DNA of 42,489 bases from Deltaproteobacteria bacterium (lineage in GTDB: Bacteria; Desulfobacterota; GWC2-55-46; JAJCZF01). Made by a program: the position numbers and the translations under genes. The notes below the pieces were generated by a model. That model searched no databases. It was not told the origin of the DNA and saw nothing but the letters and a program-made list of their open reading frames with translations. The stretch's first letter is position 1. Each line of letters opens with the position of its first letter. The DNA is taken from NCBI GenBank assembly GCA_029262475.1, contig JAJCZG010000058.1:1-42489 (forward strand), in the 5' to 3' direction. Positions 2,504-42,489 of the stretch are shown piece by piece.

Positions 2504-2504
2504 C

Positions 2505-2915
2505 TTAGCAGCTCCTTTTTCTGCTTCTAAGCTTAGTAACCTGCGCCGAGATATCGACACCGTCGGCCTTCGCTACGAGGTCAAGCTGTTCGGCGACCGT
2601 ATCTCTGGACTTAATCTGCCTGTAAGCGTCCACAAGCGCCTTTTCCTGGTCGGAGAGGTCCGAGCCCTCGTCGTTACCGATAAGCTCCGAGAAGTCCTTG
2701 TCGCCAGCATTTATGAGTATCTTTTTGATCTCCGAAGGAGTAAAGCCTAAGTACTTTGAAAGTATTATGAGGGTAGGGATAGAGACAGCCTTATCCTCGT
2801 ATATGGCCCGCCGCGCTGTCTCGAAGGTAAGCGGCATCCCTGATCGTTTTACGAAGTCTGCGAGGTCAGAGAAGTTCTCCTGAAGCTTAGTGAATAAGAT
2901 ATTTTCTCTTGTCAT
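2505..2915 (-). CDS. HTH-type transcriptional regulator, probable lysogeny repressor
   Basis: This 136-residue protein is probably a DNA-binding regulator of the prophage. Residues about 13-55 form an Xre-like helix-turn-helix region: LTFETARRAIYEDKAVSI, then TLIILSKYLGFTPSEIKKIL. The C-terminal part is charged and helical and may dimerise. The ATG at 2915 has an AAGGAG site 5 bases upstream; an in-frame start further upstream has none. The gene forms an operon with the integrase, one base away. Its own promoter overlaps a palindrome that recurs in front of the divergent defence cassette, so self-repression and control of that cassette are likely, though inferred. It could be the main repressor or a more local controller. 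Confidence 0.75.
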   Translation of the reverse strand: MTRENILFTKLQENFSDLADFVKRSGMPLTFETARRAIYEDKAVSIPTLIILSKYLGFTPSEIKKILINAGDKDFSELIGNDEGSDLSDQEKALVDAYRQIKSRDTVAEQLDLVAKADGVDISAQVTKLRSRKRSC

Positions 2916-6101: not shown

Positions 6102-6116
6102 AAACAGGAGATAGAT

Positions 6117-9419: not shown

Positions 9420-10456
9420 GCAAGGAAATTATCCCCGCAAAGACCGAGTTTCTGCTTTATCGCACCGATGACGGCAGGGTCAGGATAGAGACCCGGATGG
9501 AAGATGAGACTGTCTGGCTTACCCTCCAGCAGATGTCCGAGTTGTTCCAGGTGGACAAGTCCGGCATAAGCCGTCACCTTAAAAATATCTTTGAATCCGG
9601 CGAGTTAGCGTTGGAGGCAACTGTTGCAAAATTTGCAACAGTTCAATACGAGGGAGAACGAAGCGTTTCCCGTAACCTGGAGTATTACAACCTGGATGCC
9701 ATCATATCCGTCGGCTACAGGGTAAACAGCATTCGTGGCACTCATTTTCGCCAGTGGGCCACCGGACGTCTGCGCGAGTATATCATCAAGGGTTTTGCTA
9801 TGGATGATGAGCGCCTTAAGCAGGCTGCTGGGGGCGACTACTTTGATGAGCTGCTTGCCCGTATCCGTGACATTAGGTCTTCGGAGAAGCTCTTCTGGAG
9901 CAAGGTGCTGGAAATATACTCCACAAGTATCGATTACGACCAGAATGCCGATATTACACAGAATTTTTTCAAGATCATCCAGAACAAAATGCACTGGGCG
10001 GCGCACGGCCAGACAGCGGCGGAATTGATTCATGACCGGGCAGATGCTTCAAAACCCAATATGGGGTTGACCAGTTGGTCCGGCAAGTCAATACGCAAAA
10101 ATGAGGTCTCCATAGCAAAGAACTACCTGAACGAAGAAGAGCTGGATGTCCTCAACCGTATTGTAACTATGTATCTAGACTTCGCGGAATTCCAGGCCAA
10201 GCAACGTAAGCCCATGAAAATGCGGGATTGGATCTCCAAGTTGGATGACTTCCTGAAACTATCCGAGCGGGATATCCTGACCCATGCAGGCAAGATCAGC
10301 CACAACACGATGTTAGAAAAAGCGCACAAGGAATACGGAAAATACAAGAAAAAGATGCTCTCCGCACCGTCTGAGGTGGAAAAACACTTCATTGAGGCGG
10401 AAAAAGAGATCAAACAGATAGAATCCAAGAGAAAACGAGGGCCGAAGAATGGCTAG
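9416..10456 (+). CDS. RhuM-family protein in the defence cassette
   Basis: This 346-residue protein belongs to the RhuM family, named after a Salmonella virulence-associated gene; its biochemical function is not established. An N-terminal region with a winged-helix-like look (VWLTLQQMSELFQVDKSGIS, about 32-51) suggests DNA binding, followed by the family core NLEYYNLDAIISVGYRVNS and FRQWATGRLREYIIKGF, and a basic C-terminus (KRKRGPKNG). Members often sit inside restriction-modification loci. The start is the ATG at 9416, overlapping the methyltransferase stop (ATGA) with a GGAGG-type site upstream; an earlier in-frame start at 9359 lacks one. Its last 8 bases overlap the next gene, so the cassette is translationally coupled. 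A regulatory or DNA-binding accessory role is inference. Confidence 0.88.
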   Translation: MSKEIIPAKTEFLLYRTDDGRVRIETRMEDETVWLTLQQMSELFQVDKSGISRHLKNIFESGELALEATVAKFATVQYEGERSVSRNLEYYNLDAIISVGYRVNSIRGTHFRQWATGRLREYIIKGFAMDDERLKQAAGGDYFDELLARIRDIRSSEKLFWSKVLEIYSTSIDYDQNADITQNFFKIIQNKMHWAAHGQTAAELIHDRADASKPNMGLTSWSGKSIRKNEVSIAKNYLNEEELDVLNRIVTMYLDFAEFQAKQRKPMKMRDWISKLDDFLKLSERDILTHAGKISHNTMLEKAHKEYGKYKKKMLSAPSEVEKHFIEAEKEIKQIESKRKRGPKNG

Positions 10457-13400
10457 AAAGTCCCGAGGTCCCAAAGAACATGCCTTCCGCAACAAACTGC
10501 TTTTAACCCAGTGGCTTATAAGCCTGCTCGGCATTGATCCGCTTGCCGATAACAGGCTGCGCGGGGAGAAGGTACGCCCCTTTCACCTATTGGCTGATCC
10601 GATCAAGAGTCTTCGCGAGGATGGGCTGGATGATGACAACCTGCATCATTTCTACCATGCTCTGGTTAACAGTAACCTCTTCTGGAATGATTTTGCCGCA
10701 CTCGGCAAGGAGCAGATTCTACTATATGAGGAGAATATCGTCAGGCATACCCAGGTGATCAACGGGAAGCGTCATCGTCCTGTGGAATGGAAGTATTACC
10801 AGTGGCTGACACTTCTCTTCGTGGAGGTCTACCTGGACCGTTACTTTGGAAACAGGGAAGGCCTGTTGCGAGACCTTAACGCCTTTGTAAAACGCTTCAA
10901 CCGGCACTGTGTGGATTATGCAGATGTGACCCAATATACCGAAGACGACCTGAATAAGCTCTGTCTGCAGAACGCCACAGGCAGCGGTAAGACTCTGCTT
11001 ATGCATGTCAACCTGCTGCAATACCGTCATTATGCCGTGAGACACGGAAAGGATAAGGACCTGTCCCGTATTATTCTGCTTACGCCCAATGAGCGTTTGA
11101 GCGAGCAGCACATCGCGGAGTTCAGGGAAAGCAATATAACGGCAGAATCCTACCTTCAGACACGAAGCGGCCTTTTCGGTGCGGCCAGGGGGCTTGACCG
11201 GGTAGATGTGCTGGAAATCACCAAGCTGGCCGATCAGGAGGGCCCTAATACCATCGCAACCCGCAGCTTTGGGGACCAGAACCTGCTATTGGTGGATGAA
11301 GGTCACCGGGGCATGAGTGGCAAGGAGGAAGGTGCCTGGTTTAAGCGGCGGAGCGACCTTTGCGCCAAGGGCTTTACTTTTGAATACTCGGCCACTTTTG
11401 AGCAGGCGGTCCAGGCATCAGGCAAGGCCGACTTCGCTAACAGCTATGCCAAGGCGATCGTTTTCGACTACTCCTACCGCTGGTTTTATGAAGATGGGTT
11501 CGGCAAGGACTACCAGATACTAAACTTGCCAAAGACCTACGATACGGTTCAGGCTACATACCTGACCGCGTGCTTGCTCAAGTTCTACCAACAGCTTCGT
11601 ATCTACGAGGAGAAGGCTCGGGAGTTCGAAACGTTCAATATGGAAAAACCCCTCTGGGTATTTGTGGGAAGCACCGTGTCTTCGGGTAGGATGGGCCAGG
11701 ATGAGCAGATAGTTGCCACTGATGTGGCTCAGATCATTCATTTCATTGCCGATTTCCTTGACGACCGGGATGCGGCCAAAAGGCGAATGCAAGAGATACT
11801 AACCGGTAAAGGCCAGGATACCGGGCTTTTGGACAAAGACGGCAATGACATCTTTGCAGGTTCCTTCACTTATCTGGGTAAAGCAATGAATATCGGGGAA
11901 ACAGTGGACGACCTATACCAGAATATCCTCGGGCGGCTTTTCAATAATCCAGCGGGTGGAAGTCTTATTTTAGACCGCGTCAAGGGAGAATCCGGCGAAG
12001 TGGCGCTTAGGGTTGGCACATCCGAAACACCCTTTGGACTTATTAATGTTGGCGATGCCAAAGGGCTCTGCGATCACGTGGCCGAATTCGCTTCACAAAA
12101 TGGCACCCGGCTGACGGTCGAGGATAGCGACTTTACCGAGGCCATGTTTGCTTCGGTAAAAGACTCAGCTTCGCCGGTCAATCTGCTCATCGGCTCCAAA
12201 AAGTTCGTTGAAGGTTGGGACTGCTGGCGCGTAAGCACCATGGGCTTGATGCATGTTGGCCGCAGCGAGGGCACCCAGATAATCCAGCTTTTTGGCCGTG
12301 GCGTGCGCCTGAAGGGTTTTGATTGGAGCCTCAAGCGCAGTGGGCACTCTAATGCACAGCACCGTCCTAACTTCATAGAGGAGCTTGAGACGCTAAACGT
12401 CTTTGGTATCGAGGCAGACTTCATGGAGAAGTTCCGTGAGTTCCTGAAGGATGAAGGGCTGCCGGGCAATGAGCGCCGGAAGATTATCACCATTCCTCTG
12501 AATGTGACCTACGACTTCGGCAAGAAGTTGAAAATTCTGCGACCAAAGCGAAAAGCCTCGGATGGCAAGGAATACGACTTCAAGAAGGACGCCCCTGTCC
12601 CGATTGTTGGAGATATACCCGGTTATTTGACGGACAATACCGTTGTGGCGGACTGGTATCCGCGCATACAGGCCATGCAGTCCCGAGGGGCTGGCCTGGC
12701 CACTCAGAAAGATAAGGTCCTGCTCCGTGAAGACCAACTGGCTCTGTTAGATTACGACGCGCTGTTCTTTGAGCTGGAACAGTTCAAGCGTGAACGGAGC
12801 TGGTATAACTTGAATATCTCCAAGGCGGGCATTCAAAGACTGCTTCTAGATTCGACATGGTACACACTCAACCTGCCTGCGGCCAGAATGAACCCATCTG
12901 GTTACGATGGTGTGATGCTCCTTCAACAGGTAGCGGCTGAGTTGCTGAAGCGTTACTGCGACCACTACTATAACTACCGCAAGCGTGAATACATCGAACC
13001 ACGGCTGGAGCTGCGCGAGCTGACGCCAGATGACGACAACCTGCCCAGGGAGGAATTCTACCAGCTCATCGTCGATGGAGATGAAGAGCAGATCATTCAA
13101 GGTATCCAGCAGGTCAAAAAGGATCTTGAGGACAATAAGGACGATCTTTTGAAAGTCAGCGACCTAAATGCCTGCAACTTCGGGAAACATTTATTCCAGC
13201 CGCTTTTCCATGTCCGGCGCGGCGGCAAGATTACCATCCTACCGGTGGTTCTCAACGAGAGCGAATACCAGTTCGTTACCGACCTAAAGGTATGGTGCGA
13301 CGCGCACAAGGCCGCTTTGGAGAAGGACGGCATGGAGTTGTTCCTACTCAGAAATTTAAGCCGAGGCAAGGGCGTAGGCTTCTTCGAGGCGGGGAACTTT

Positions 13401-13703
13401 CACCCTGACTTCATTCTATGGATACTCGTTGGCGACAAACAGTACGTCACCTTTATTGAGCCGCACGGACTTCTACATGAAGGCCCATCAAGCGAAAAGG
13501 TGCTACTACACAAACGCATTAAGGATGTCGAGCAGCGACTGAACGATCCAGAAGTGATACTAAACAGCTTCATTCTCTCTTGGACCAGGTATCCCCAGTT
13601 GAAGTGGGACAAAACCCAGCTGGAGCTTGAAGATAAACATGTGCTCTTCATGACGGACGATCGTGACCACTATATCGACAAGCTCTTCTCCAAACTCAGG
13701 TAA
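10449..13703 (+). CDS. type III restriction enzyme Res-like helicase-nuclease
   Basis: This 1,084-residue protein resembles the restriction subunit of type III systems: a superfamily 2 translocase with a C-terminal nuclease. Motifs: NATGSGKT (Walker A, 175-182), DEGH (283-286, a variant DExH box), EYSATF (III), FVEGWDCWRV (V) and QLFGRGVRL (VI, 613-621). Near the C-terminus HPDFILWIL followed by FIEPHGL (D987, E1004, H1006) matches the position of the PD-(D/E)XK nuclease of Res proteins, but the usual Lys is replaced by His, so activity or metal use may differ. The ATG at 10449 lies within the end of the RhuM gene. With the upstream methyltransferase it should form the modification-restriction core. 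It is the last gene of the cassette. Confidence 0.9.
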   Translation: MARKSRGPKEHAFRNKLLLTQWLISLLGIDPLADNRLRGEKVRPFHLLADPIKSLREDGLDDDNLHHFYHALVNSNLFWNDFAALGKEQILLYEENIVRHTQVINGKRHRPVEWKYYQWLTLLFVEVYLDRYFGNREGLLRDLNAFVKRFNRHCVDYADVTQYTEDDLNKLCLQNATGSGKTLLMHVNLLQYRHYAVRHGKDKDLSRIILLTPNERLSEQHIAEFRESNITAESYLQTRSGLFGAARGLDRVDVLEITKLADQEGPNTIATRSFGDQNLLLVDEGHRGMSGKEEGAWFKRRSDLCAKGFTFEYSATFEQAVQASGKADFANSYAKAIVFDYSYRWFYEDGFGKDYQILNLPKTYDTVQATYLTACLLKFYQQLRIYEEKAREFETFNMEKPLWVFVGSTVSSGRMGQDEQIVATDVAQIIHFIADFLDDRDAAKRRMQEILTGKGQDTGLLDKDGNDIFAGSFTYLGKAMNIGETVDDLYQNILGRLFNNPAGGSLILDRVKGESGEVALRVGTSETPFGLINVGDAKGLCDHVAEFASQNGTRLTVEDSDFTEAMFASVKDSASPVNLLIGSKKFVEGWDCWRVSTMGLMHVGRSEGTQIIQLFGRGVRLKGFDWSLKRSGHSNAQHRPNFIEELETLNVFGIEADFMEKFREFLKDEGLPGNERRKIITIPLNVTYDFGKKLKILRPKRKASDGKEYDFKKDAPVPIVGDIPGYLTDNTVVADWYPRIQAMQSRGAGLATQKDKVLLREDQLALLDYDALFFELEQFKRERSWYNLNISKAGIQRLLLDSTWYTLNLPAARMNPSGYDGVMLLQQVAAELLKRYCDHYYNYRKREYIEPRLELRELTPDDDNLPREEFYQLIVDGDEEQIIQGIQQVKKDLEDNKDDLLKVSDLNACNFGKHLFQPLFHVRRGGKITILPVVLNESEYQFVTDLKVWCDAHKAALEKDGMELFLLRNLSRGKGVGFFEAGNFHPDFILWILVGDKQYVTFIEPHGLLHEGPSSEKVLLHKRIKDVEQRLNDPEVILNSFILSWTRYPQLKWDKTQLELEDKHVLFMTDDRDHYIDKLFSKLR

Positions 13704-14104
13704 TAGGGTTTTTTCAGATACTAGATGAGCTGAAAGTTGACTTTGATGTAGTAGTAATGATAGATTGCGTTTAATGCATTTAGTGCAAATAAGATGCGTT
13801 TTTTGTATAGTGCGTGAATTTGCTGCCACAATATACCTTCCTCCAAGTAATAAAAACCACAAGATATAGATATGCTCATTGTCTGGCCCGTCGTTATTTA
13901 GCAGTCATCGCATTACATTTAACCTCTCTAATTCGATCATTTCATTGAAAAAATAAGATTCTCCCTAAATCTACCCTCCTTGAAACAAGAAATGCTGGGC
14001 AATACATATGTAGTGCAGGTGTTATTGCTTGTATTTCATTTTTCCTTGTGGTATAGAGTCTATTATAGAAATTAATTTAAGTATAATAATTCCATAGACT
14101 ATGC
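13704..14104. other. AT-rich intergenic region
   Basis: About 400 bases between the cassette end and the early promoter hold no supported gene. T-runs occur after the Res stop (TTTTTT at 13710) and near 13798, but I could not pair a convincing terminator stem with either. The composition is lower in GC than both flanks, as is common at an insertion junction. Confidence 0.5.
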
Positions 14105-18423: not shown

Positions 18424-19908
18424 TTGAACGAAGCGGATATAAAACTTATCAAGTCCTGGGTGCGTAACCCACGGAAGTTCGTTATTGAGGCGCTTAGGCT
18501 TGAGGAAAAGGGGCATACCCTCTCCAGACAGCAGGAGAAGGCCCTGGATGAGCTTAAGAAGCTTGTTACTGCCAAACTCAAGGCCTCCGAGGGCAAGAAA
18601 CTCTCTACAGAGGAGAAGGAGTACGCCGCTAAGATTGGCATATCAATCATGTCCGGGCAAGGTACGGGTAAGGACGCTTTCGCCTCATGGGTGATTCTAT
18701 GGTTTCTTTGCTGCTTCCCTTTCCCGAAGATTCCCTGCACCGCTCCCACGGACAAGCAGCTTAAGGTAATTTTGTGGGCCGAAATAAGTAAGTGGCTCCG
18801 GGACAGTCACGTTGAGAGTTGGCTTACATGGCAGTCGGAGAAGGTCTTTTTGAAAGATCACGGTGGCAAGGAGTGGTTTGCCGTCGCCAAGACCGTTAAC
18901 GTCAAGGGCTCGGCTGACGATCAGGCAGAGACACTCGCGGGCTTCCACGAAGACTTTCTCATGGCCGTTATGGACGAGGCCTCCGGCATTCCCGACCCGG
19001 TCTTTAAGCCAATAGAGGGCACTATGACAGGCAAGTGCAACTTCGTCCTTATGATATTTAATCCTACTCGCTCTTACGGCTTTGCCGTTGACAGCCACGT
19101 GAAGAACAGACAGGACTGGGTATGCCTCAAATGGAATGCCGAAGAGAGCGAGCTAGTCTCGCGCTCACACGTAGAGCGCATGGAGCGCAAGTACGGACGA
19201 GACTCTAACGCCTTTAGGATAAGGGTAAAGGGGCTTCCTCCGCTTGCCGACACAGATACCCTAATCCCCTGGGACTGGGTAATGAACGCGGTTGAGAGGG
19301 AGATAGAGCCTTTGGAAGACGATCCGCTCCTTTTCGGAGTAGACGTAGGTGCCGGGGGCGATAAGAGCGTTATTCTTCACAGGCGTGGAGGGCTCGTAGA
19401 AAGGTTAACGACCCATACGACGCCGAACACGATGGAGCTTACCGGATGGGCCTCTGCCGACATAGATGAGTACGAGGCGAGTGCCGTATTTGTGGACGTT
19501 ATAGGTCTCGGTAACGGCGTATACAACAGGCTTAAAGAACTCGGTCATAGCAGGGTCTACCCAGTGGACGTGAGAAGTACGGCCCGCAATAATGATCGGT
19601 TCCACCGGCTACGTGACGAGATATGGTGGACGCTCAGGGAACAGTTCGAGAAGGGTACGATCTCCATACCGAACGACGATGAACTTATCTGCGAACTTAC
19701 GACGATTAAGTATGAGCCGGAATCTAACGGTAAGGTGAAGGTCGAGGGAAAGAAGGAGATGAAACGCAGGGGTCTTGAAAGCCCTGACAAGGCCGACGCT
19801 CTGTGCCTTACCTACTACCTTCCGGAGAGCACCTTCAGGCGAGAGAGGACAAAGAGATACAGGACTGACCCAATTGACGAGAGACAGCACGGGTGGATGG
19901 TGGCATGA
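18424..19908 (+). CDS. terL: terminase large subunit
   Basis: This 494-residue protein is the DNA-packaging motor and headful/cos nuclease. The N-terminal ATPase has a Walker A GQGTGK (78-83) and a Walker B VMDE (182-185) followed by a coupling motif near FNPT. The C-terminal RNase H-like nuclease shows FGVDVG (D307), AVFVDVIGLG and SPDKADAL (D455, D458), the expected acidic triad. The size matches the family. The start is a TTG at 18424, the first start in a frame that opens only at 18370, with an AAGGG site upstream. The portal gene overlaps its stop (ATGA). By architecture it groups with TerL proteins of podovirus-like phages with P22-type portals. Confidence 0.93.
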   Translation: MNEADIKLIKSWVRNPRKFVIEALRLEEKGHTLSRQQEKALDELKKLVTAKLKASEGKKLSTEEKEYAAKIGISIMSGQGTGKDAFASWVILWFLCCFPFPKIPCTAPTDKQLKVILWAEISKWLRDSHVESWLTWQSEKVFLKDHGGKEWFAVAKTVNVKGSADDQAETLAGFHEDFLMAVMDEASGIPDPVFKPIEGTMTGKCNFVLMIFNPTRSYGFAVDSHVKNRQDWVCLKWNAEESELVSRSHVERMERKYGRDSNAFRIRVKGLPPLADTDTLIPWDWVMNAVEREIEPLEDDPLLFGVDVGAGGDKSVILHRRGGLVERLTTHTTPNTMELTGWASADIDEYEASAVFVDVIGLGNGVYNRLKELGHSRVYPVDVRSTARNNDRFHRLRDEIWWTLREQFEKGTISIPNDDELICELTTIKYEPESNGKVKVEGKKEMKRRGLESPDKADALCLTYYLPESTFRRERTKRYRTDPIDERQHGWMVA

Positions 19909-21986
19909 AGCTTGTAAGGACTACAAAAGAAAAGAGGCATTCGCATATCGCCGGGCTATCAGATAGCGGCGAGGGGAGTACCTCCGTCCATAAAGGGCAT
20001 TCGCACACCGTCGCCTACAGGGAGGCTCAGGCCGAAGAGTTAGATGAAGTAGAGAACGTGATATTGGAAGCGGTCGAAGGCGGCTGGTTTATAGAGCCCG
20101 CCGAAGACGGTCACACACACATCTTTGAAGCTATCGTAACCGCCTCTGAAACTGGCAAGAAAAAGAAGGACGATGCGGAGACGGCTAAAGATGTTAGGGG
20201 CCTGTATAAGGAAGCTAAAGAATACGAAAAGGATTTTAGAAAGAAGGCCGAGGAATCGGAAAGATATTACATGGGGGAACAGTGGAAGAAAGCCGACAAG
20301 GACTACCTCGAATCTCGGGACCGGGCCGCCCTTACCATAAACGAGATAGAGCCGAAGATAGACCTGCTTTCCGGCTACCAGCGGCAGAATAGAAGCGATA
20401 TCAGGTTCTACCCCGTTGAGGATGGCGACTCAAGGGTGGCCGACATACTTACGCACGTCGTAAAGAACATTACAGAGCAGAACAACTTTGAGTACGAGGA
20501 GACCGGCGTATTTACCGATGAGATGATTACGGGGCGTGGACTCTTTAATACCTATGTGAGTTACGACGAAAACATTTTAGGGGACATAAAGGTAGAAAAA
20601 TTCCCCTGGGACGAATGCTGGTTCGGCCCTCACGACAGGGAAGACCTCGCCGACTGCGAGTATCTAGTAAAGACGAAGTGGTTGAGCTTCGCCAAGGTAA
20701 AGGAACTCTGGCCCGAGAAGAAGGACGATATAGATAAAGAAACAGACATCTATACATCAACCGACGACCCGCACACGACTCACGTTGAAGGCCAGTACGA
20801 GAAGTCGGATAATAGTGTTAGCGTACCCTTCGACGATGATTTTGTGGATATAGCAAGGAAGGAGTACCGCGTCCTGGAGTGTTGGAAAAAGGTCTATAAA
20901 CGCGCTTACGTGCTCGTAAACGTTACCGAGAGTTTTTACCACAACGCAGAAGGATGGGACGATAAGGACGTAAAGGCCGTCAAGACCATACCAGGCTTCA
21001 GCGCGATACCGAGGGTCAAGACCGATATGAGGATAACACTCACGGCAGGGAATACCATTCTTAACGACGGTATGGACGAATACTTCGACGGTATGTTTTC
21101 GATGGTGCCTGTCTACGCAAAGAAACGTAAGAAAGAGGTGTGGGGCAGGGTGGAGGCGGCTAAAGAGCCTCAGATGGAGATTAATAAGCGTCATTCGCAA
21201 TCCGTGGATATCTTGAACAAGGCGGCGGCTTACGGTTGGTTTTATGATGATACGATCTTTCCGTCTGCGGCAGATAGAGACAGTTTTAAGAATAACTGCA
21301 CCTCTCCTGGCTTTCTAGCCAAGGTGGCGAATATAAAGCACCTCCCACATCAGGTCGAGGGCGTAAAGTTCCCGAACGAGATAGTCGCCCTCGAATCACT
21401 TGCTACGGAAAAGCTCCGGGAGATAATGAACATAAACCCCGAGCTTCAAGGCGTTAATTCTAGGGCCGAGAGCGGTATAGCCATAGCCGAGAAGAAGAGA
21501 CAGGGTCTCATAGGAAACGAGTTTCTCTTCGACAACCTGAGCTTATCCAAAAAGATACTCGGAAGGCTCATCGTAAAACTAGTCCAGAAGATATATTCGC
21601 CCGAGAGAATACTCAGGTTACTTGAGAACCGTAGCAACCGGGAGCAGATGGAGATTGGCGGCCAAGACTTTTCAGAGTATACGAAAGAGGAGATACTCGA
21701 CTTGCTTAAAGAATCGGACCTCACCAAGTATGACGTGGCCGTCGGTGAGAGCGCCTATAACCCGACCACGAGGCACGCGAACTTCGCCATATGGGCCGAG
21801 CTATCAAAGACTCACCCGGACACAATACCGCTCGACATGCTTATAGACCTATCCGACCTTCCGGAGAAGGATAAAATAAAGAAGAAGATAGAGGAGCGCA
21901 TGCAGGCCCAGGCCGAGGATGCCGAGCGGACGAGACAGACAGAAATAGAAAAGACGCTTATAGCGAGATCGGGGCAGATGCAGTGA
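19905..21986 (+). CDS. P22-like portal protein with His-rich N-terminus
   Basis: This 693-residue protein should form the dodecameric ring at the packaging vertex. The region after about residue 90 resembles P22-type portals: YYMGEQW, a LTINEIEPKIDLLSGYQRQN segment, then FPWDECWFGPHDREDL and a helical C-terminus (EIMNINPELQGVNSRAESG). The first 75 residues are unusual: HSH (12-14), GHSH (31-34) and DGHTH (68-72) with an acidic segment between, looking like a small metal-binding or virion-attached domain fused in front. The start at 19905 gives the ATGA overlap with the terminase. The DUF2292-like gene overlaps its own stop. Confidence 0.88.
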   Translation: MKLVRTTKEKRHSHIAGLSDSGEGSTSVHKGHSHTVAYREAQAEELDEVENVILEAVEGGWFIEPAEDGHTHIFEAIVTASETGKKKKDDAETAKDVRGLYKEAKEYEKDFRKKAEESERYYMGEQWKKADKDYLESRDRAALTINEIEPKIDLLSGYQRQNRSDIRFYPVEDGDSRVADILTHVVKNITEQNNFEYEETGVFTDEMITGRGLFNTYVSYDENILGDIKVEKFPWDECWFGPHDREDLADCEYLVKTKWLSFAKVKELWPEKKDDIDKETDIYTSTDDPHTTHVEGQYEKSDNSVSVPFDDDFVDIARKEYRVLECWKKVYKRAYVLVNVTESFYHNAEGWDDKDVKAVKTIPGFSAIPRVKTDMRITLTAGNTILNDGMDEYFDGMFSMVPVYAKKRKKEVWGRVEAAKEPQMEINKRHSQSVDILNKAAAYGWFYDDTIFPSAADRDSFKNNCTSPGFLAKVANIKHLPHQVEGVKFPNEIVALESLATEKLREIMNINPELQGVNSRAESGIAIAEKKRQGLIGNEFLFDNLSLSKKILGRLIVKLVQKIYSPERILRLLENRSNREQMEIGGQDFSEYTKEEILDLLKESDLTKYDVAVGESAYNPTTRHANFAIWAELSKTHPDTIPLDMLIDLSDLPEKDKIKKKIEERMQAQAEDAERTRQTEIEKTLIARSGQMQ

Positions 21987-23221: not shown

Positions 23222-24220
23222 ATGGCCAAAACGGCATTTTCAACAAGCGATCCCCTTACCAAAAAGGTATGGGAGGAAAGGCTTTTCAGAGACACGCAGA
23301 AAGAGAGTTACTTCTCTCGCTTCATGGGAAAGAGCGCGGAAGCGCTCGTCCATGTAAAGGAACAACTTACAAAGACGAAGGGCGACAACATGACCTTCGG
23401 CATAAGGATGAGGCTAAAGGGCGACGGCGTTACCTCGGGGCAAGTGCTCGAAGGAAACGAAGAGAAGCTCACCACGCACGACTTCAGCGTATCACTCGAA
23501 CGATACAGGCACGGCGTGAGAGACGCGGGCGAACTCGACAGACAGCGGACGGTCTTCTCTATAGACGAAGAGAGTGTTTCGGCCCTTAAGACCTGGGGAG
23601 CGGAGAAGATAGACAGTCTCTGCTTCGACGCTATACAGACGAGCCCGACTAAAGTCTTCTACGCAGGAACGGCTACGAGCACCGGAACGCTTACGGCAAC
23701 GGACCTCGTAACGCCTTCCCTTATATCGAGGGCGAAGACCTGGTGCAAGACCGGCGGTAACAGGGGACAGACCCCGCTAAGGGCCATCAGGATAAACGGG
23801 AAGAACTACTTCGTCTTTCTCGTCCATCCGGATGTCATGTACGACTTGAAACAGGACCCGACTTTTGCGCAGGCAAGGCGCGAGGCCCTTGAGCGAGGAA
23901 AGGATAATCCCATCTTCAGCGGTGCCGAGGCGATATGGGACGGCGTAGTGGTACACGAGCACGAGAATATCGACCTGGCTACCAACTGGGGCGCAAGCTC
24001 TAACGTGCCTGGCGCTAAATGCGTCTTCATGGGCGCACAGTCTCTCGTATGGGCGTGGGGCAAGAGGCCGAGGGTCGTCTCTGAGAACTTCGACTACGAG
24101 GAAGAGCACGGTTTTGCATGGGCCATGACTTCAAGGACCGCAAAGCCCAAGTTCAATAACAAGGACTACGGCTCGGTCGCAATAAATGTGGCTAGAACCC
24201 GGATAAGCGACGCTTTATAA
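23222..24220 (+). CDS. N4-gp56-family major capsid protein
   Basis: This 332-residue protein builds the head shell. The sequence style matches the N4-gp56 family of major capsid proteins: DPLTKKVWEERLFRDTQKES at the start, GDNMTFGIRMRLKGDGVTSG, then DFSVSLERYRHGVRDAGELD and a C-terminal VRIxGxNYFVFLVHP-like segment. An HK97-type fold is expected. It follows the scaffold by 16 bp with a CGGAGG site, and codon use is strongly biased, as for a highly expressed gene. Confidence 0.9.
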   Translation: MAKTAFSTSDPLTKKVWEERLFRDTQKESYFSRFMGKSAEALVHVKEQLTKTKGDNMTFGIRMRLKGDGVTSGQVLEGNEEKLTTHDFSVSLERYRHGVRDAGELDRQRTVFSIDEESVSALKTWGAEKIDSLCFDAIQTSPTKVFYAGTATSTGTLTATDLVTPSLISRAKTWCKTGGNRGQTPLRAIRINGKNYFVFLVHPDVMYDLKQDPTFAQARREALERGKDNPIFSGAEAIWDGVVVHEHENIDLATNWGASSNVPGAKCVFMGAQSLVWAWGKRPRVVSENFDYEEEHGFAWAMTSRTAKPKFNNKDYGSVAINVARTRISDAL

Positions 24221-24705: not shown

Positions 24706-25098
24706 ATGAGTTTTTCTGACTATCTTGAAAATAGCTTGCTTAACCATACTGTCGGGAAGGCCGCTTATATTATGCCGACGGCCTATGTCGGCCTCTCGAC
24801 GACAAACCCGCTTGAGGACGCTACCGGATTGGCCGAACCGGTAGGCAGCGCTTACGCAAGGATAGCGACTGGAGCTCTTGACTGGAACTCTGCGGCGGCT
24901 GGCTCAATAGACAACGCCAATACTATTACTTTCCCAACGGCTACGGGAGCGTGGGGCACGGTAACGTATTTCGCTATCTTCGACGCTCTTACGGCTGGCA
25001 ATATGCTTACCTCAGGCGTGTTGACGATATCGAAGACTATAGGCAACGGAGATACGGCGTCCTTCGCCCCAGGGCAGATTACCATAACGCTCGACTAG
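24706..25098 (+). CDS. phage structural protein, tail-fibre-like family
   Basis: This 130-residue protein matches a recurrent phage structural family often labelled tail fibre: YLENSLLNHTVGKAAY at the start, then AYVGLSTTNPLEDATGLAEP, YARIATGALDWNSA and ITFPTATGAWGTVTYFAIFD. It is predicted all-beta and probably trimeric. It starts with a GAAGGAG site and is followed 16 bp later by the repeat-bearing protein, with which it may assemble. Confidence 0.8.
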   Translation: MSFSDYLENSLLNHTVGKAAYIMPTAYVGLSTTNPLEDATGLAEPVGSAYARIATGALDWNSAAAGSIDNANTITFPTATGAWGTVTYFAIFDALTAGNMLTSGVLTISKTIGNGDTASFAPGQITITLD

Positions 25099-34212: not shown

Positions 34213-37200
34213 GTGAAGGTAAACCTTATACCAATAGAGACAAAGCAGGTTGCTCTTGAGCCGCTCCCGGAGGCTTCATGGGGGGAGACTCTAGTTACCG
34301 GACCAGCGAAGAGCGTATTCCCCGCCTTCGGTCGTGGGCTTGGTGGGCTTATTCAGGGGCTCGGAGAGTACGGCGAGCAGTACCCTGAAAGGCCGGAGAG
34401 CAACTTTGGTCTCGGTGTGGGCAACCTCCTTAAGACCGAAGCCGAAAGGGAAGCGGAGATAAAGAGAGCGAAGGAGTTTCATCGGCGCGTAGCTGAGGTT
34501 GGCAGTGAGACGGCTAAATACTGGGGTGAAAAAGTTCAGGAGGCGCAGCCTTACACTGAGCCTGGAAGCGCAAAGTATTACGCCGGAGCCGCAGCTCAAT
34601 CCGTAGCGCAGATGGTTCCTCCCCTTGCCGCCGGGATAGTTACCGGTAACCCTCTCGTAACGGTCTCTATGATGGGCGGCCAGGTTGCAGGGGAGCAGTA
34701 CGCCACACAGAGAGAGGCTGGACAAACCCCTGAAACGGCGAGGATAGCCGCCATAGGGTACGGACTAGCCGAGGCTATACCGGAGGCGATACCCGTAGGC
34801 ATATTACTCAAGCCGGGGGTAAAGCTCCTCACCAGAGCGATAAAGGCCACTGCTACAGAGATACCGCAAGAGATGATTACCGAGGCCCTTCAATCGGCTA
34901 TTGACAAGGGCACCATACAGCCTGACATGACCTGGAGAGAAGCGAAAGAGCGCCTTATAGACGCTGGCATAATCGCGGCTATAAGCGGCCCTGCCCTTGC
35001 CGGTATAACACATCCATTCGTAAAGGAACCACTAACAAAAGAAGCTGTAGAGACGGATACTAAGAAACCTAAGGATGTCGTCCTTATCCCCGCTGACGAT
35101 ACTATCGATGAAGTTGAGGATACGCTTATTGAGGGTGAGAAGGCGAAGAAGGAGTATAAGGCAAGAAGACGCGCTGAGAAAGAGGCGGCTTTACCCGAAG
35201 CGGATATTGTCGAGGAAGCTCCAATACAAGAGGAGACCTTACCCGAAGAGGAGATCATTGAGGAGGCTCCCGTACCAGTTAAGCTTGAACCTCTAACTTC
35301 AGCAGAGCCTATCAAGGCTATCGACGAAGAAGTTCCGGAGAGTATAGCGAAACCAGAAGCAAGCAGTAGGCCTAGGATAGTCGTCGAGAAAGCCCGTATT
35401 GTGCCAACACGCGCTGGTGTCATGGCTATTCCTGAAGGCGAGAGAGAGGTATACGAGGGGGGCGAGCTGGTAAACGATGAGAAGAAACCCTCTATAGGAA
35501 CGGTCGATAATATAGACACGGTGGCTCTCTCAGGCGTATTCAAGGGCGAGATAGATCGGGGCGAGAAGCTAAATAAACTTAAGGTCTACAAAATCATCGG
35601 CGACGCTCTTGACGTAAAAGTCTCCGAGCTTAAAAACAGCAAAGACTACAATCACAAGGCGGTAGAGGAAGCCTTTGAGTACGCCATTGTGAAGAAGGGT
35701 CGTGAGATAGCGCAGTCGAACTTGTCAGGTAGTGAAAAGCTCAACGCCCTTAAAGAAGTTTACGAAAATCAGCCTAACCTCTCGCAGAGGACCTCCACCT
35801 CTATTGCCGGTCAGCAGTATTCGACTCCTCTGCCGCTTGCGTGGCTTATGGGCGAGCATATCGGTATAGACGAAAATACTACGGTCTACGAGCCTACCGC
35901 CGGGAACGGGGTACTCCTTATAGGTGCAACTCCGGAGAAGGTCACTACGAACGAGCTTGACGCTGGAGCTCGGCAAAGACACCTTAAAGACGCGGGATAT
36001 GGAAGAGTTGTCGAGGGCGACGCGCTTTTGTTCCTTGCCGACTACCCTGAACTTTCCAGTTCGTTCGACAGGGTAATAATGAATCCTCCATTCGGCAGCG
36101 CCACTCCTAAGACTTATGACGGATTCAGGATCTCCAAACTCGAAGATCAGATAGTTATAGGCTCGCTCAGGGCTATGAAGGACGACGGCAGGGCGGCATT
36201 CATCATAGGCGGGCATAACTTCGACGGCAAGGGGGAGATGGCGGAGGCCGACAGGCTCTTCTTTAACTACCTTTACAGTCACTATCACGTTGGACACAAT
36301 ATAGACATAAGCGGCAACGTATACCGGAAGATGGGAACCTCTTTCCCTATAAGGCTCGTAACCATAGAAGGCAGGAAGGGCGCACCTGATAACGAGTTCG
36401 CCCCGTATGAGCCGGGGCAGGTCGAACGAGCCGAAACCTTCGATGAAGTGCAGAATATCCTTGCAAGGCCGCTCAAGCGCATTAAAATAGAAGTAAAGGA
36501 GGAAAAAGATGGCGAAGAGAGAGAGGGTGATAGTCCACGACCACTTGGAAGAGAAGGTGAGCGAGTTTCTGGAGCGGAAGAAGAAGGGAGAAGAAGAGCA
36601 AAGACTTCAGGACGTGTTGAGCACGCTGAACGGACAAGCGCAGTGGATGGCGAGCGAGAGCGACCAGCCGATAGACATAGCGCAGCTAATAGTATTCGAC
36701 CTGATGGAGATAGGGGAGTTCTGGGAGATGGAGGAGTATCTCAACAGATCGAAGGAAGCGAGGGAGTACGACCTACCAGACCTTCTAAGCGAGTTCCACC
36801 CGAGCAGTCTCGACTAAAAAACGAATTTCAGGCTCTGTACCGTCCCGCCTCAAAGGGCCAGACCGGAAAGAACCTCATACCGAAAAACATGAGGGGCGCA
36901 GTAAGCGCCTCTCTCGACCGTATTTCCACTGAGAAGGGCGATATAGACGATTACGTCATGCAGTCCCTTGGTTACGATAGCGTAGAGGCAATGCACGAAG
37001 CTCTATCAGCCGAACAGGTGGATGCCGTGGCCATGGCCATAAACGCTATCGACCTTGGTAAGGCTGTTATCGTAGGAGATCAGACGGGGGTTGGCAAGGG
37101 GCGAGTTGCGGCAGCTACGATCAGGTACGCCAATAGACTCGGTAAGAAGCCTATCTTTATGACGCAACAGCCTAAGCTATTCTCTGATATGTTTAGAGAC

Positions 37201-40200
37201 CTTGCCGACATAAAGCACAAAATAAAGCCTTTTATCATGCACAGCGACAAGAACGTTGCTTCCATCGTTGACGAGGAAGGGAACATTCTGTTTAAGCCTA
37301 ACGGCTCAGCCGCAGTCTACAGGAAGATGGTGGACGACCCTCAATCGGTCATGGAGGAGTTCGACGCAATATTTGTCCCGTATACTCAATTATCTAAAGA
37401 AAATAAACAGAGAGAGATACTAGCTGCACTTGCCGTAAATAACGTCGTGATACTTGACGAGTCGCATGAAGTGGCCGGAGGCTCGGCGAGAGGTAAGTTT
37501 ATAAGGGAGAATATACTTAATTCGGCAGACGGCGCTCTCTACCTCTCGGCCACATACGCCAAGAGGCCGGATACCATACCGCTCTACTACAGGACGAGTA
37601 TTGGCGACTCCGGAATGGAGCTGGACGCCTTGATAGACGCCGTTCAACAGGGTGGTGTGCCGCTACAGCAGATAATGGCCGGGCACCTTGCCGAGGACGG
37701 CCAGTACATAAGGCGCGAGCTTGATTTTAGCGGCATAAGCATTAAGACGGATATAGATTTTAATAACGAGGCCTCCGACGTAAAGAAGGCTGATGAAATA
37801 ACGGGCATACTCAGAACCATAGTGGAGTTCGATAATTTCAAGTCTGAGCTTATTGACGCATGGGACAAGAAGGCCCGAAAGGAAGGAAAGAAACTCACGG
37901 GTGATAAGCATACGAGCGCGGGGGTTAATTCCTCAAACTTCAGTTCAACGGTCCACAACCTCGTAGGACAGCTCCTGCTCTCCATAAAAGCCGACAATGC
38001 AGTAAATACCGCTCTCAGGGAACTTAAGGCAGGGAAGAAGCCTCTAATAAACCTTATGAATACCATGGGCTCTTTCATTGAAGACACCGCCACGAAGGAG
38101 AGTATAGAAATAGGCGAGCCGATTGGCTTTACTTTCAGGGACGTTCTAAAGAAGGCGCTTCGCGGAACGCTTACATATACCGTAAAGGACGCATACGGCA
38201 GGACGACGAAGAAGAGACTCGTACCAGAGGAGGACTTCGACGCGGTAACACTTTCGGCTTACAATAGGATTTCAGAGAAGATAGAAACCCTTAAGACAGA
38301 CGTACCCGCCTCTCCCATAGACTATATGCTGGCGAAGTTTGAGGAGGCCGGATACAGGGCCGGAGAAATAACCGGGCGTAAATATATTATCGACTACTCA
38401 AAGAAGATACCGACCCTTGAAAAACGAGCGCCAAAGGAGATAAAGGACAGGAACAAACCCGTAAACGACTTTAACTCAGGCAAGATGGACGTGCTCATCT
38501 TTAACAGAGCTGGCTCTACGGGTTTATCACTTCACGCTTCGGAGAAGTTCAAGGACCAGAAGCCCAGGCATATGATTATTGTACAGGCCGATCTAAATAT
38601 CGACACCTTCATACAGGCGCTTGGTAGGATATTCAGGAAAGGTCAGGTGGTGAATCCCGAATACACCATCCTCCAGACTGCGCTCCCGGCTGAGATACGC
38701 CCTGCCGTTGTTTTGTCCAAGAAGATGGCCTCGCTTAACGCTAATACTTCGGCAAACTCCGAGTCAGCAACGACCATGAAGGACGTGCCGGACATGCTTA
38801 ACCTGTATGGCGACGAGGTGGTGAAAGAGTACCTGAAGAATAATCATGAGATCAACAATATACTTGGAGACCCCCTTAAAAATGACGATGAGGTAGACGC
38901 CATGCGGAAAGTAACAGGCCGTGCGGCCCTTCTTCCCGTGGAGCTTCAAAAAGCCTTTTATTCAGATGTTGAAGCTCAGTATCAGGACTTTGTTGATTAC
39001 CTTAACCAGATAGGCGAGAACAACCTGGTAACGAGGGACTACGACTTCGGGGCGAAGACTATTGAGAAGACCCATATATACAAGGGCACAGACGAAGGCT
39101 CGCCTTTTAGCTCAAGCGCGTGGCTTGAGAAGGTATCTGTAAAGCTCCTGAAAAAGCCCTTCATGAAGGGCAAGATAGAAGAGAAGGTAAGAGAGAGACT
39201 GAAAGGGCAGACGGCTGATGAGTTCGGTAAAAGGCTTTACGACAGGATAGCTAAAAAGACAGGTGGCTACAGGGAAGAGCGGAAGCGGAAACTTGAGACC
39301 CTTTCGGAAGGAGAGCAGAGAGTTCTTAAGCTTCGCATCGGAGAGTTGAACGAACAGTTGGGGTATATACTTGAAAGCCTCACTAAATTCAAGGTTGCCG
39401 ATATTTACGACGTTGCGGTAACGGACAACTTCCAGACCAAAGGCGTGCTGGTAGACATACGTTATGACGAGAAGAGTTCAGGAAGCCCTGCGGCCCCTTC
39501 GAAGGTAAAGCTCGTCTTCGCCGTGGCCGACCCTATACAGACGATTAGCCTGCCGCTATCCAAGAAGCTCCAGTTAAAAGCTACGGACAGCCTCTCCAAT
39601 GATCTCTTTAAAGAGTGGGACGAGATAGTTCCAAAGAGTTCAAGGGAGGAGAGGCATATTATTACCGGGAACCTCCTTCAAGGCTTTGAGCGGCTTGGGA
39701 GCAGAGCCGAAGTCATAACCTATACAGACGATAAGGGAGAGCTTAGAAACGGCATTCTCCTTCCGAAATCTTTAAAGAATGTAGAAGAGAGATTCACTCA
39801 TCATACAGTCGATGCTGAGATTGCTTACGAATACCTCACGAAAGACCACTACCGTAAGGCCCTGAAGACGTCTAACGGTATTCTTCAGATAGATTATGAA
39901 GCCGGTGGGTCTTCTATTGAGGTCAGCGTACCAAAGGCCAAGAAGACAGGGGGTAAGTATTACCTGAACGATAAAATACGCAAACTCGTTAGAAGGGAAG
40001 ATTTCATCTCTCGTGGAAACAGGATGTGGGGTACGGTCGAGGAGCGTGACCTAAAGGACTTTTTAAAGACCCTTCAGGAGGAGACCGGCGTAAGGTTCGA
40101 GATACCGATAGAGAGTGCCAATAAAACTGGAAGCTCTGGCATTAGCTTAAGCTTCCTCGGAACGCAGAGCATCTATGAAGCTACAGCCAACCTGGTAAGA

Positions 40201-42489
40201 AAACTCAACCCGGAAGTCGCACCGAACGTAGAGGTGCAGAGCGAGGTAAAACAGTTAGGAGTTATAAAGAAATACCTCGGTTCCCCTGGCACCATAGAGG
40301 GCAAGTCTCGCTACTACGTCATACACGCAAAGAACGCCATACACAAGCAGGACAGGCTCCGTGGCCTTGCAGACAGGAAACTCTCGGAGATATTCAAGCC
40401 CTTAAAGGAGAAGAAGCTCCGGAGAGAGTTTGAGGCCCTTGAGTGGATGGGTGACGCTGCTGGTGAGGAGTATACTGCCACGGAGCTTAAAGAGATGGAC
40501 GTAAGTCCCGTGGTTATATCGGCATACTTGAAGCATAGGAAATTTCACCGTCAGGTATGGAGGCTTCTCTCTGCACACAGGAAGGCATACGGAGGCGATA
40601 CAGGCTACCTGAAGGGTCATGTACCTCACCTCTTTGAAAACTGGAACGTCTACGAGGTTGAAGAGGAGTTACTTACAAAGAAAGGCAGTGATTACGAGGT
40701 AGAGAAGACGCTCGGCTCGATACTCGGCACCTTCAGGTCTCTAAGGGAGGCGACAAACTTCGCTAACGGTCAGGGCTCGAAGCGGAAGTATGTGATACGT
40801 CCAAAGGTTTTCCAGATGCCTGATTACCTTCTGCAAAAGACCACCTTAAAGGACGCTTCTTTCTTTAAGCTCGTCGGTAGGCTTGAAAAGGGGTTTGAGT
40901 TAACGAGGGAAGAGGCACTTGAACTTACAGGTGAAATCACTCGCCGGAAGAACAGGCGGCGCTTTTTTGGAAATCTCGTTAAGAGGACCGGGCAGAGCGG
41001 GTTCAGGAAGGACGGCCTTTATGACATTTTGCAGCACTACTACAACTCAACAGCGAGGTACGTAACCCTCGATGACTTCAAGGCGAGTGTCATACCCAGG
41101 TTTGAAAAGGACTTCGGCATAGAACATGGAAGGTCCAGGGACGCGGTAAGAGATAAAACGCAAGCCCGTTATATAGAGAGGTTTATAGACGACGTAGGAG
41201 GCGTACCATCGGAGATTGAAGAAGCCCTTAACGCTTCAATAAAGAACGCGCCATTTTTGAGGCAACTGGTACGTTCCGAGAGACCCGCCATCTGGGGAGT
41301 TAATAAGCTCCTCCACGCAACTGCGGTTATGAAGCTCGGAGTATTTAACCTCTCTGCGGGTGTGGTTAACCTTACTCAGCTAACGAACACATTTGCCAAG
41401 GTGCCAGCAAAACACTTCGCCTTGGCCATAGAAGAGGCCATGAGGCCGTGGAATCGGATGAAGCCTGGACACAGGGCTATACTCAAAAGGATAGGCGTGC
41501 CTTTCGACTTAGGGCTAGGAGATACGGGAGGGTACTCAGTAACGCATAAAGGCGGTAAGGTCATCAGAGCCTCTATGTTCGCCTTCCAGGCGGCTGAGCA
41601 GCTAAACCGAAGGGTAACGGGCCTTGCCTCATACAGGTGGGCGAGGAAGGATAAGGGCATGAACCATAGACAGGCTATACTCTTCGCTCGTGAGGTAATC
41701 GACAAAACTCAGTTCGACTATTCAGTGGCCGATACAGCTCAAATATTCAGAAATCCTGTAGGAAGGTTACTCGGTCAATTCCGGCCCTTCGCCATAAAGG
41801 AGATAGAGTTTGTAACCGGACTTAAGGGGGCTGAGAATATAAAGTTCTGGATACCCATACTACTTATAGCCGGGCTCGGCGGCATACCGCTCATAGAAGG
41901 TATAAGCGGGCTTATAGAGTGGCTTACCGGCAAGAATCCACTTGTTGAGACTAAGGCGTTCCTTATGAGATGGGCCGGGGACGATCCACAGAAGAAACAG
42001 GCCGCTGAAATTGCCATGTATGGAGTGGGCTCGGTGATAAATGTTGATGTCTCAAGGCGTGTAGGGCTTGGGGACGTACTGCCGAGACGCGCTGAAGACT
42101 TGCTAGGCCCGACGATCAACACCGTCCGTCAGGCGTTAAGGATAGCGAAAGGTGGGGGGGATAAGAGCGAGCTCGTAAAGACCTTCGCTCCTTCGATAGG
42201 GAACCTGCTTACTGCTCTTGAGACGGCACTTAACGATATGCGTGTTGAAGACCCCTGGCACAGGGATCGGTTAAAGTATATCGCTAAGGCATCAGAGATC
42301 GCCGTAAAGGCAACTGGCCTAAGGCCCGTAAGGGAATCCGAGATGTCTGACGTTGAGCGTATAAGGCAATACGAGACGAGAAAGTATACGAAGCTCCAAC
42401 AGAGATTCATAGACCTGGCTATCAAGGCGCTTAAAGAGGGCGATGCAGAGGGCTTCGTCGAGGCCATATCAAAGGCCGCTAAACGAGGC
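34213..42489 (+). CDS. giant polyvalent protein: methyltransferase plus strawberry-notch helicase, DarB-like (3' end outside window)
   Basis: One frame stays open for 8,277 bases, giving at least 2,759 residues; the stop lies outside. Region order: (a) a Gly/Ala-rich, membrane-prone segment (about 120-300, e.g. SVAQMVPPLAAGIVTGNP), then an acidic Pro/Glu linker; (b) an adenine methyltransferase with VYEPTAGNG (558-566) and NPPFG (624-628); (c) a low-complexity linker (about 765-870); (d) a superfamily 2 helicase of the strawberry-notch type: GDQTGVGKG (955-963), ILDESHE (1080-1086), LYLSAT (1109-1114), STGLSLHA and QALGRIFRKGQ (1468-1478); (e) about 850 residues without clear domains; (f) an LPD38-like stretch (about 2369-2660, FQAAEQLNRRVTGLASYRWA, hydrophobic FWIPILLIAGLGGIPL). 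This matches phage polyvalent proteins and P1 DarB, which enter the cell with the DNA and protect it from restriction. GTG start, coupled to the preceding stop. Confidence 0.88.
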   Translation, partial: MKVNLIPIETKQVALEPLPEASWGETLVTGPAKSVFPAFGRGLGGLIQGLGEYGEQYPERPESNFGLGVGNLLKTEAEREAEIKRAKEFHRRVAEVGSETAKYWGEKVQEAQPYTEPGSAKYYAGAAAQSVAQMVPPLAAGIVTGNPLVTVSMMGGQVAGEQYATQREAGQTPETARIAAIGYGLAEAIPEAIPVGILLKPGVKLLTRAIKATATEIPQEMITEALQSAIDKGTIQPDMTWREAKERLIDAGIIAAISGPALAGITHPFVKEPLTKEAVETDTKKPKDVVLIPADDTIDEVEDTLIEGEKAKKEYKARRRAEKEAALPEADIVEEAPIQEETLPEEEIIEEAPVPVKLEPLTSAEPIKAIDEEVPESIAKPEASSRPRIVVEKARIVPTRAGVMAIPEGEREVYEGGELVNDEKKPSIGTVDNIDTVALSGVFKGEIDRGEKLNKLKVYKIIGDALDVKVSELKNSKDYNHKAVEEAFEYAIVKKGREIAQSNLSGSEKLNALKEVYENQPNLSQRTSTSIAGQQYSTPLPLAWLMGEHIGIDENTTVYEPTAGNGVLLIGATPEKVTTNELDAGARQRHLKDAGYGRVVEGDALLFLADYPELSSSFDRVIMNPPFGSATPKTYDGFRISKLEDQIVIGSLRAMKDDGRAAFIIGGHNFDGKGEMAEADRLFFNYLYSHYHVGHNIDISGNVYRKMGTSFPIRLVTIEGRKGAPDNEFAPYEPGQVERAETFDEVQNILARPLKRIKIEVKEEKDGEEREGDSPRPLGREGERVSGAEEEGRRRAKTSGRVEHAERTSAVDGERERPADRHSAANSIRPDGDRGVLGDGGVSQQIEGSEGVRPTRPSKRVPPEQSRLKNEFQALYRPASKGQTGKNLIPKNMRGAVSASLDRISTEKGDIDDYVMQSLGYDSVEAMHEALSAEQVDAVAMAINAIDLGKAVIVGDQTGVGKGRVAAATIRYANRLGKKPIFMTQQPKLFSDMFRDLADIKHKIKPFIMHSDKNVASIVDEEGNILFKPNGSAAVYRKMVDDPQSVMEEFDAIFVPYTQLSKENKQREILAALAVNNVVILDESHEVAGGSARGKFIRENILNSADGALYLSATYAKRPDTIPLYYRTSIGDSGMELDALIDAVQQGGVPLQQIMAGHLAEDGQYIRRELDFSGISIKTDIDFNNEASDVKKADEITGILRTIVEFDNFKSELIDAWDKKARKEGKKLTGDKHTSAGVNSSNFSSTVHNLVGQLLLSIKADNAVNTALRELKAGKKPLINLMNTMGSFIEDTATKESIEIGEPIGFTFRDVLKKALRGTLTYTVKDAYGRTTKKRLVPEEDFDAVTLSAYNRISEKIETLKTDVPASPIDYMLAKFEEAGYRAGEITGRKYIIDYSKKIPTLEKRAPKEIKDRNKPVNDFNSGKMDVLIFNRAGSTGLSLHASEKFKDQKPRHMIIVQADLNIDTFIQALGRIFRKGQVVNPEYTILQTALPAEIRPAVVLSKKMASLNANTSANSESATTMKDVPDMLNLYGDEVVKEYLKNNHEINNILGDPLKNDDEVDAMRKVTGRAALLPVELQKAFYSDVEAQYQDFVDYLNQIGENNLVTRDYDFGAKTIEKTHIYKGTDEGSPFSSSAWLEKVSVKLLKKPFMKGKIEEKVRERLKGQTADEFGKRLYDRIAKKTGGYREERKRKLETLSEGEQRVLKLRIGELNEQLGYILESLTKFKVADIYDVAVTDNFQTKGVLVDIRYDEKSSGSPAAPSKVKLVFAVADPIQTISLPLSKKLQLKATDSLSNDLFKEWDEIVPKSSREERHIITGNLLQGFERLGSRAEVITYTDDKGELRNGILLPKSLKNVEERFTHHTVDAEIAYEYLTKDHYRKALKTSNGILQIDYEAGGSSIEVSVPKAKKTGGKYYLNDKIRKLVRREDFISRGNRMWGTVEERDLKDFLKTLQEETGVRFEIPIESANKTGSSGISLSFLGTQSIYEATANLVRKLNPEVAPNVEVQSEVKQLGVIKKYLGSPGTIEGKSRYYVIHAKNAIHKQDRLRGLADRKLSEIFKPLKEKKLRREFEALEWMGDAAGEEYTATELKEMDVSPVVISAYLKHRKFHRQVWRLLSAHRKAYGGDTGYLKGHVPHLFENWNVYEVEEELLTKKGSDYEVEKTLGSILGTFRSLREATNFANGQGSKRKYVIRPKVFQMPDYLLQKTTLKDASFFKLVGRLEKGFELTREEALELTGEITRRKNRRRFFGNLVKRTGQSGFRKDGLYDILQHYYNSTARYVTLDDFKASVIPRFEKDFGIEHGRSRDAVRDKTQARYIERFIDDVGGVPSEIEEALNASIKNAPFLRQLVRSERPAIWGVNKLLHATAVMKLGVFNLSAGVVNLTQLTNTFAKVPAKHFALAIEEAMRPWNRMKPGHRAILKRIGVPFDLGLGDTGGYSVTHKGGKVIRASMFAFQAAEQLNRRVTGLASYRWARKDKGMNHRQAILFAREVIDKTQFDYSVADTAQIFRNPVGRLLGQFRPFAIKEIEFVTGLKGAENIKFWIPILLIAGLGGIPLIEGISGLIEWLTGKNPLVETKAFLMRWAGDDPQKKQAAEIAMYGVGSVINVDVSRRVGLGDVLPRRAEDLLGPTINTVRQALRIAKGGGDKSELVKTFAPSIGNLLTALETALNDMRVEDPWHRDRLKYIAKASEIAVKATGLRPVRESEMSDVERIRQYETRKYTKLQQRFIDLAIKALKEGDAEGFVEAISKAAKRG
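36495..36502 (+). promoter_or_regulatory. internal ribosome binding site of the nested gene
   Basis: A perfect AAAGGAGG lies six bases before the ATG at 36509, inside the giant gene. It is one of the strongest Shine-Dalgarno sites in the window, and stronger than that of the giant gene itself. Confidence 0.7.
36509..36817 (+). CDS. nested out-of-frame gene within the polyvalent gene linker
   Basis: This 102-residue protein is encoded in another frame than the surrounding giant gene. It starts MAKRERVIVHDHLEEKVSEF and continues with helical, acidic, protein-like sequence (DIAQLIVFDLMEIGEFWEME; YDLPDLLSEFHPSSLD). About three quarters of its codons end in G or C, as in real genes here, while the giant gene's frame over the same bases ends mostly in A or T and encodes a disordered Arg/Gly/Ser/Pro linker. 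Together with the perfect ribosome binding site this suggests that the nested frame is the one under selection. It may bind one of the flanking domains; its function is unknown. The alternative is chance openness helped by the site. Confidence 0.6.
   Translation: MAKRERVIVHDHLEEKVSEFLERKKKGEEEQRLQDVLSTLNGQAQWMASESDQPIDIAQLIVFDLMEIGEFWEMEEYLNRSKEAREYDLPDLLSEFHPSSLD

Follow-up and report, generated by a model that had tools for sequence, protein, structure and literature searches.

A further DarB-like giant protein gene, with a plasmid-type methyltransferase-helicase block and a conserved C-terminal module, in a deltaproteobacterial phage contig

The DarB protein of phage P1 is a large head protein that carries both an adenine methyltransferase and an SF2 helicase (PMC5512222, PMC9024508). 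As a head protein (PMC9024508) it is needed against EcoB/EcoK (PMC11109961, PMC12810830). How it acts has been called undefined, and restriction alleviation is described as a confounder in the tests of darB on plasmids (PMC11109961). For the methyltransferase-helicase dyad, Iyer et al. (2017) put forward methylation of the injected DNA (PMC5512222). DarB-like giants are also found in the Bcep22-like podophages BcepIL02 (gp70) and its relative, Burkholderia phage JC1 (gp69), and in Vibrio phage VvAW1 (gp01), and the JC1 protein was detected in virions by mass spectrometry, with 51 unique peptides (PMC9144972). Giants of this kind are thus already known, and the one that we describe here is a further example and not a new kind.

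We analyzed a stretch of 42,489 nucleotides (hereafter the window) that makes up the whole of contig C58 in a 2.4-Mb assembly of 145 contigs from a Deltaproteobacteria bacterium. By its ribosomal protein S2, the host belongs to an uncultured lineage, with Deltaproteobacteria assemblies as the closest named records (72%). Its last gene resembles P1 darB in layout, with an adenine methyltransferase and an SF2 helicase in a single protein, and its phage carries a type III-like system, much as P1 carries a type III system. The two giants share no significant homology (best segment with an E value of 0.04, none by profile), and the P1 record has neither a P22-type portal nor a tail-700 match. Hence, the label "DarB-like" proposed in the initial annotation is apt as a description of layout, not of sequence homology to P1 DarB.

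The other known giants each resemble parts of ours. VvAW1 gp01 shares the N-terminal segment and has a weak methyltransferase match, but the helicase of our giant has no detectable BLAST match to VvAW1, and both VvAW1 and BcepIL02 end in LPD38 where our protein has a PLxRFG/tail-700-like C terminus. The giants of the PLxRFG/tail-700 type (those of Itty13 and of Rhizobium phage RHph_TM29, and Klebsiella Lastavirus proteins) share the C-terminal part of the module described below. Bacteroides phage BS-TP4 gp3 (5391 aa) has the same central block, with 31.6% identity over residues 454-1945 of our giant, but it ends in LPD38 and its gene precedes the portal. The plasmid Strawberry-notch proteins, e.g., WP_009684331 (1742 aa), have the same order of methyltransferase, helicase, and extension, at 24-41% identity by segment. 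In the four plasmids that we examined, neither the N-terminal region of the giant nor its C-terminal module found a match.

The giant gene and its phage

The giant gene is one open frame that starts with GTG and encodes 2759 residues, as the initial annotation had read it (more than 2,750 residues). It lacks its 3' end because the contig stops there, at an assembly cut. A search of the assembly with the tail of a relative gave no match for the missing part. The complete relatives L002 (2830 aa), L003 (2001 aa), L004 (1925 aa), and L005 (3234 aa) go on for some 40-50 residues past the cut point. The remaining five frames over the same DNA contain 67-196 stops each, and the open frame is therefore not due to chance. 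In L002, the nearest full-length relative, another frame of 556 residues (3891-5561) overlaps in a different reading frame the start of the giant frame (5345-13837), and it could be real or an assembly frameshift. When checked as a split N terminus of the giant, it was unrelated by BLAST.

Table 1. Features of the window and segments of the giant protein
Feature	Coordinates	Strand	Evidence and remarks
Tyrosine integrase	1364..2560	-	PF00589 3.4e-30
SNF2 helicase, DISARM DrmD type	3207..6101	+	under NCBIfam cut-off
Type III-like Mod methyltransferase	6117..9419	+	PF01555, PADLOC MTase_III 2.4e-252
RhuM-family protein inside cassette	9359..10456	+	PF13310, PDC-S05
Type III-like Res	10449..13703	+	PADLOC REase_III 4.1e-171; C-terminal PDF...IEPH nuclease-like motif
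Terminase large subunit	18424..19908	+	phrog_2
P22-type portal	19893..21986	+	PF16510 2.9e-97
Major head protein	23222..24220	+	phrog_334 2.4e-69, PF13252
gp80-like protein, podophage GP4 type	24706..25098	+	PF23140 7.6e-40 (Pfam: fiber I), phrog_240 (PHROGs: head protein)
Small gene, 200 aa	32708..33310	+	placed like VvAW1 gp03 ("DNA ejection"); L002 has a homologue
Gene directly upstream of giant, 301 aa	33307..34212	+	runs up to the start codon of the giant; L004 has the C-terminal half in its upstream gene
Giant polyvalent protein gene	34213..42489	+	2759 aa from a GTG start; 3' end cut off where the contig stops
N-terminal region, residues 1-430	34213..35502	+	VvAW1-type hydrophobic segment (101-271) followed by an E/P/K-rich linker
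Gamma-type adenine methyltransferase, residues 430-760	35500..36492	+	phrog_6263 DNA methyltransferase; TAGNG 562, NPPF 624
Low-complexity linker, residues 760-890	36490..36882	+	composition, GC3
Strawberry-notch SF2 helicase/translocase, residues 890-1550	36880..38862	+	Pfam AAA_34 1.5e-16, Helicase_C_4 1.5e-22
Helicase C-terminal extension, residues 1550-1985	38860..40167	+	homologous directly after helicase in plasmid/phage relatives
C-terminal module, residues 1985-2759, truncated	40165..42489	+	44-64% identity in L002-L005 and L009
Module part matching PLxRFG/tail-700 (NF032893), residues 2435-2752	41515..42468	+	hydrophobic stretch 2543-2561

The phage context claimed at the outset is borne out by the integrase, a primase-polymerase, the terminase, the P22-type portal, and the head genes (Table 1). 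These genes are best explained by a temperate, short-tailed phage with a P22-type portal, and the integrase makes a prophage state likely. The window shows neither an attachment site nor flanking host DNA. Beside the integrase, a small gene (2505-2966, minus strand) looks by eye like a helix-turn-helix repressor. A P22-type portal was also found in L002, VvAW1, BcepIL02, Itty13, and BS-TP4 (among the phages with DarB-like giants named above, VvAW1 and BcepIL02 were tested), and not in L003-L005 or L009, which are possibly fragments. Behind the morphogenesis genes, the giant gene is the last that the contig shows, an order also found in VvAW1 and BcepIL02. L002 encodes homologues of both small genes ahead of the giant, and L004 encodes one of the second. 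These two genes could have an ejection role by position only, since they have no detectable similarity to the ejection or virion genes that VvAW1 and BcepIL02 have in those positions.

The restriction-like genes reported in the initial annotation are indeed present. They form a cassette of a DrmD-like SNF2 helicase, a type III-like Mod, a RhuM-family protein, and a type III-like Res, located between the integrase and the primase-polymerase. Other genomes from the phylum of the host encode related Mod and Res proteins, and two of the four examined have the SNF2 gene as well. The closest relative, with 82% identity in Res, lies on a contig that also encodes an integrase 54% identical to that of the window. 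On L039 (G013:C140), from the host's order, Mod, RhuM, and Res are 65-82% identical and the integrase 54%; the SNF2 gene was not found there. The Res motif reads PDF...IEPH instead of the usual E/D-x-K, with EPH also in L030, L034, and L038 and DPK in others. The annotation had pointed to the pairing of a resident defence cassette with a virion-borne anti-restriction protein. Such a pairing is not new: P1 carries the EcoP1 type III res near darB and gives a classic precedent for such a cassette beside such a giant.

The methyltransferase-helicase block

Compared with its homologues, the stretch from residue ~430 to 1965 reads as one block, made of an adenine methyltransferase, a Strawberry-notch helicase, and a C-terminal extension of the helicase. 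Both enzymes had been recognized from the letters alone, and the profile matches agree. The methyltransferase matches phrog_6263 and has the NPP(Y/F) motif of the TaqI/EcoKI-like adenine methyltransferases (NPPF at residue 624, with TAGNG at 562), and it is followed C-terminally by a helicase of the SWI2/SNF2 clade (AAA_34 at 928-1179 and Helicase_C_4 at 1383-1548), which is the arrangement of the polyvalent dyad. The helicase motifs are intact (Walker A at 959, DESH at 1082, and motif VI at 1468). The methyltransferase is 26-58% identical to its plasmid and phage relatives, and the match to P0004/P0005 starts near residue 436-443. In the dyad of Iyer et al. (2017), LPD36 with its GXGU motif lies N-terminal to the methyltransferase. 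In the linker between the two enzymes, third-position GC is 0.34, compared with 0.52-0.60 in the rest of the giant gene.

A search of plasmids with the block matched 695 records, of which 55 cover at least 80% of it. Most alignments, among the plasmid matches listed, stop between residues 1925 and 1964 of the giant. One relative is a stand-alone Pseudomonas plasmid protein of 1742 residues. Persicobacter encodes the methyltransferase in a gene of its own, and there the extension is still attached to the helicase. The extension itself lies directly behind the helicase in L002, in BS-TP4, and in the Chroococcidiopsis, Persicobacter, Thalassospira, and Pseudomonas plasmid proteins. Because this same extension trails the helicase in plasmid proteins and in BS-TP4 gp3, we regard residues 1550-1965 as helicase-associated and not as a free effector. 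No Pfam family matches residues 1550-2430, and the AlphaFold model of residues 1380-1985 (two sequences; pLDDT 33) was too poor for fold searches.

The two ends of the protein

The hydrophobic segment claimed for the N terminus is real: residues 101-271 are 48.6% identical to residues 191-363 of VvAW1 gp01, with a hydropathy peak at 248-270, and they are followed by the E/P/K-rich linker. The region matches phrog_10691. The Pseudomonas phage Itty13 (46%) and others give weaker matches to the segment, and searches of solved structures with the N terminus gave nothing useful. A candidate repeated LxP motif in this region was dropped, as a regular-expression search gave scattered matches only.

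The C-terminal module of ~775 residues is 44-64% identical in five phage contigs (L002-L005 and L009), while the N-terminal cargo ahead of it is mostly different. The cargo consists of MuF_C in L003, InPase with a weak methyltransferase match in L004, and a Zeta toxin with a Strawberry-notch helicase and a weak methyltransferase match in L005. It is unrecognized by Pfam in L009 and is the same block as in our giant in L002. Judging from these alignments, the relatives follow a pattern of a constant module with seemingly exchangeable cargo. A scan of the genome contigs for the module found no relative.

The initial annotation called the end of the protein LPD38-like, a label that is only partly right. 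Pfam LPD38 (PF18857) has no match in the giant, L002-L005, or L009, and is positive in VvAW1, BcepIL02, and BS-TP4. A better label is PLxRFG/tail-700: NCBIfam NF032893 matches at a C-terminal position (residues 2435-2752 of 2759) with an E value of 4e-26 and 91.7 bits, under the curated cut-off of 100. All six members match, and RHph_TM29, L011, L012, and Itty13 score above the cut-off. A comparison of profiles gave the end of the module a probability of 99.8% against RHph_TM29/L011/L012 and of 0.3% against the LPD38 ends. A distant relation to LPD38 is still possible because phrog_10089 matches both the tail-700-type and the LPD38-type ends. The first half of the module (1985-2435) lies outside the PLxRFG/tail-700 match. 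AlphaFold modeled the module (six sequences) as mostly helical at low confidence (pLDDT 48), too poor for fold searches, and searches of solved structures with the module gave nothing useful. In the Itty13 record (L027, NC_070969.1; plus strand of the locus, from 12825), the strand that matches the N terminus of our giant has an open frame of 4112 residues that runs off the record start, where RefSeq has three antisense ORFs, and the tail-700 match is on the same strand at the opposite end of the record. It seems that this phage has a giant gene which lacks an annotation and is interrupted by the origin of the record.

It is possible, and we propose it tentatively, that the whole module (residues 1985-2759) is, like its homologues, a general carrier that loads and ejects proteins and takes exchangeable cargo, including whole plasmid-type anti-restriction proteins. 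Residues 1985-2435 would then be a family undescribed in Pfam, NCBIfam, and solved structures.

Delivery and restriction

The gene order and the proteomics of the JC1 giant favor a protein that is probably virion-borne and co-ejected, and by analogy with JC1 gp69 and P1 DarB, anti-restriction appears to be the best reading of its function. We infer, with fair confidence, that the giant is packaged in the phage head and co-ejected with the DNA. Packaging and delivery would fall to its two ends, the N-terminal hydrophobic segment and the PLxRFG-type module at the C terminus. The middle would be the cargo, a plasmid-type adenine methyltransferase with a Strawberry-notch translocase, which could move along the incoming phage DNA and methylate or occupy it, so that host restriction would fail.

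The strongest competitor of the anti-restriction reading is a function in the entry of DNA, which we find rather unlikely. The giant would then be mainly an ejection or channel protein needed in every host, and its methyltransferase-helicase would aid the entry of the DNA, by pulling or in the first replication steps. This would fit the conservation of the C-terminal module though the cargo varies, the hydrophobic segments, the intact translocase motifs, and the location of the gene where the morphogenesis genes end, just as the VvAW1 giant follows a "DNA ejection" gene. Yet the methyltransferase is intact, and plasmids and phages alike retain it together with the helicase, although a pure entry motor could do without it; nor do the upstream genes detectably resemble the ejection gene of VvAW1.

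Alternatively, the giant could be a non-virion enzyme that acts late in infection and methylates the progeny DNA ahead of packaging. The late-gene position, the complete methyltransferase, and the existence of stand-alone plasmid relatives are consistent with it, but the layout of the giant, with PLxRFG/tail-700 and VvAW1-type ends, and the presence of the JC1 giant in virions argue against it and make it improbable. Finally, the initial annotation had suggested that some 850 uncharacterized residues (1500-2350) hold new host-acting effector domains, which we judge highly improbable: Pfam has no match there, but residues 1550-1965 come after the helicase also in proteins of plasmids and phages whose contexts are unrelated, and those from 1985 to 2435 belong to a C-terminal module kept with mostly different cargo. 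Of the domain map as first drawn, the hydrophobic segment, the methyltransferase, and the helicase stand, the LPD38 label does so in part, and the separate effector region does not.

For such giants, these comparisons correct the location of the unknown part. What follows the helicase is an ordinary plasmid-type helicase extension, and further work would be better spent on the C-terminal module, which is conserved beside different cargo. The action of the methyltransferase-translocase block on restriction is undefined even for P1 DarB. Our results suggest that it is one such block on which both phages and plasmids draw.
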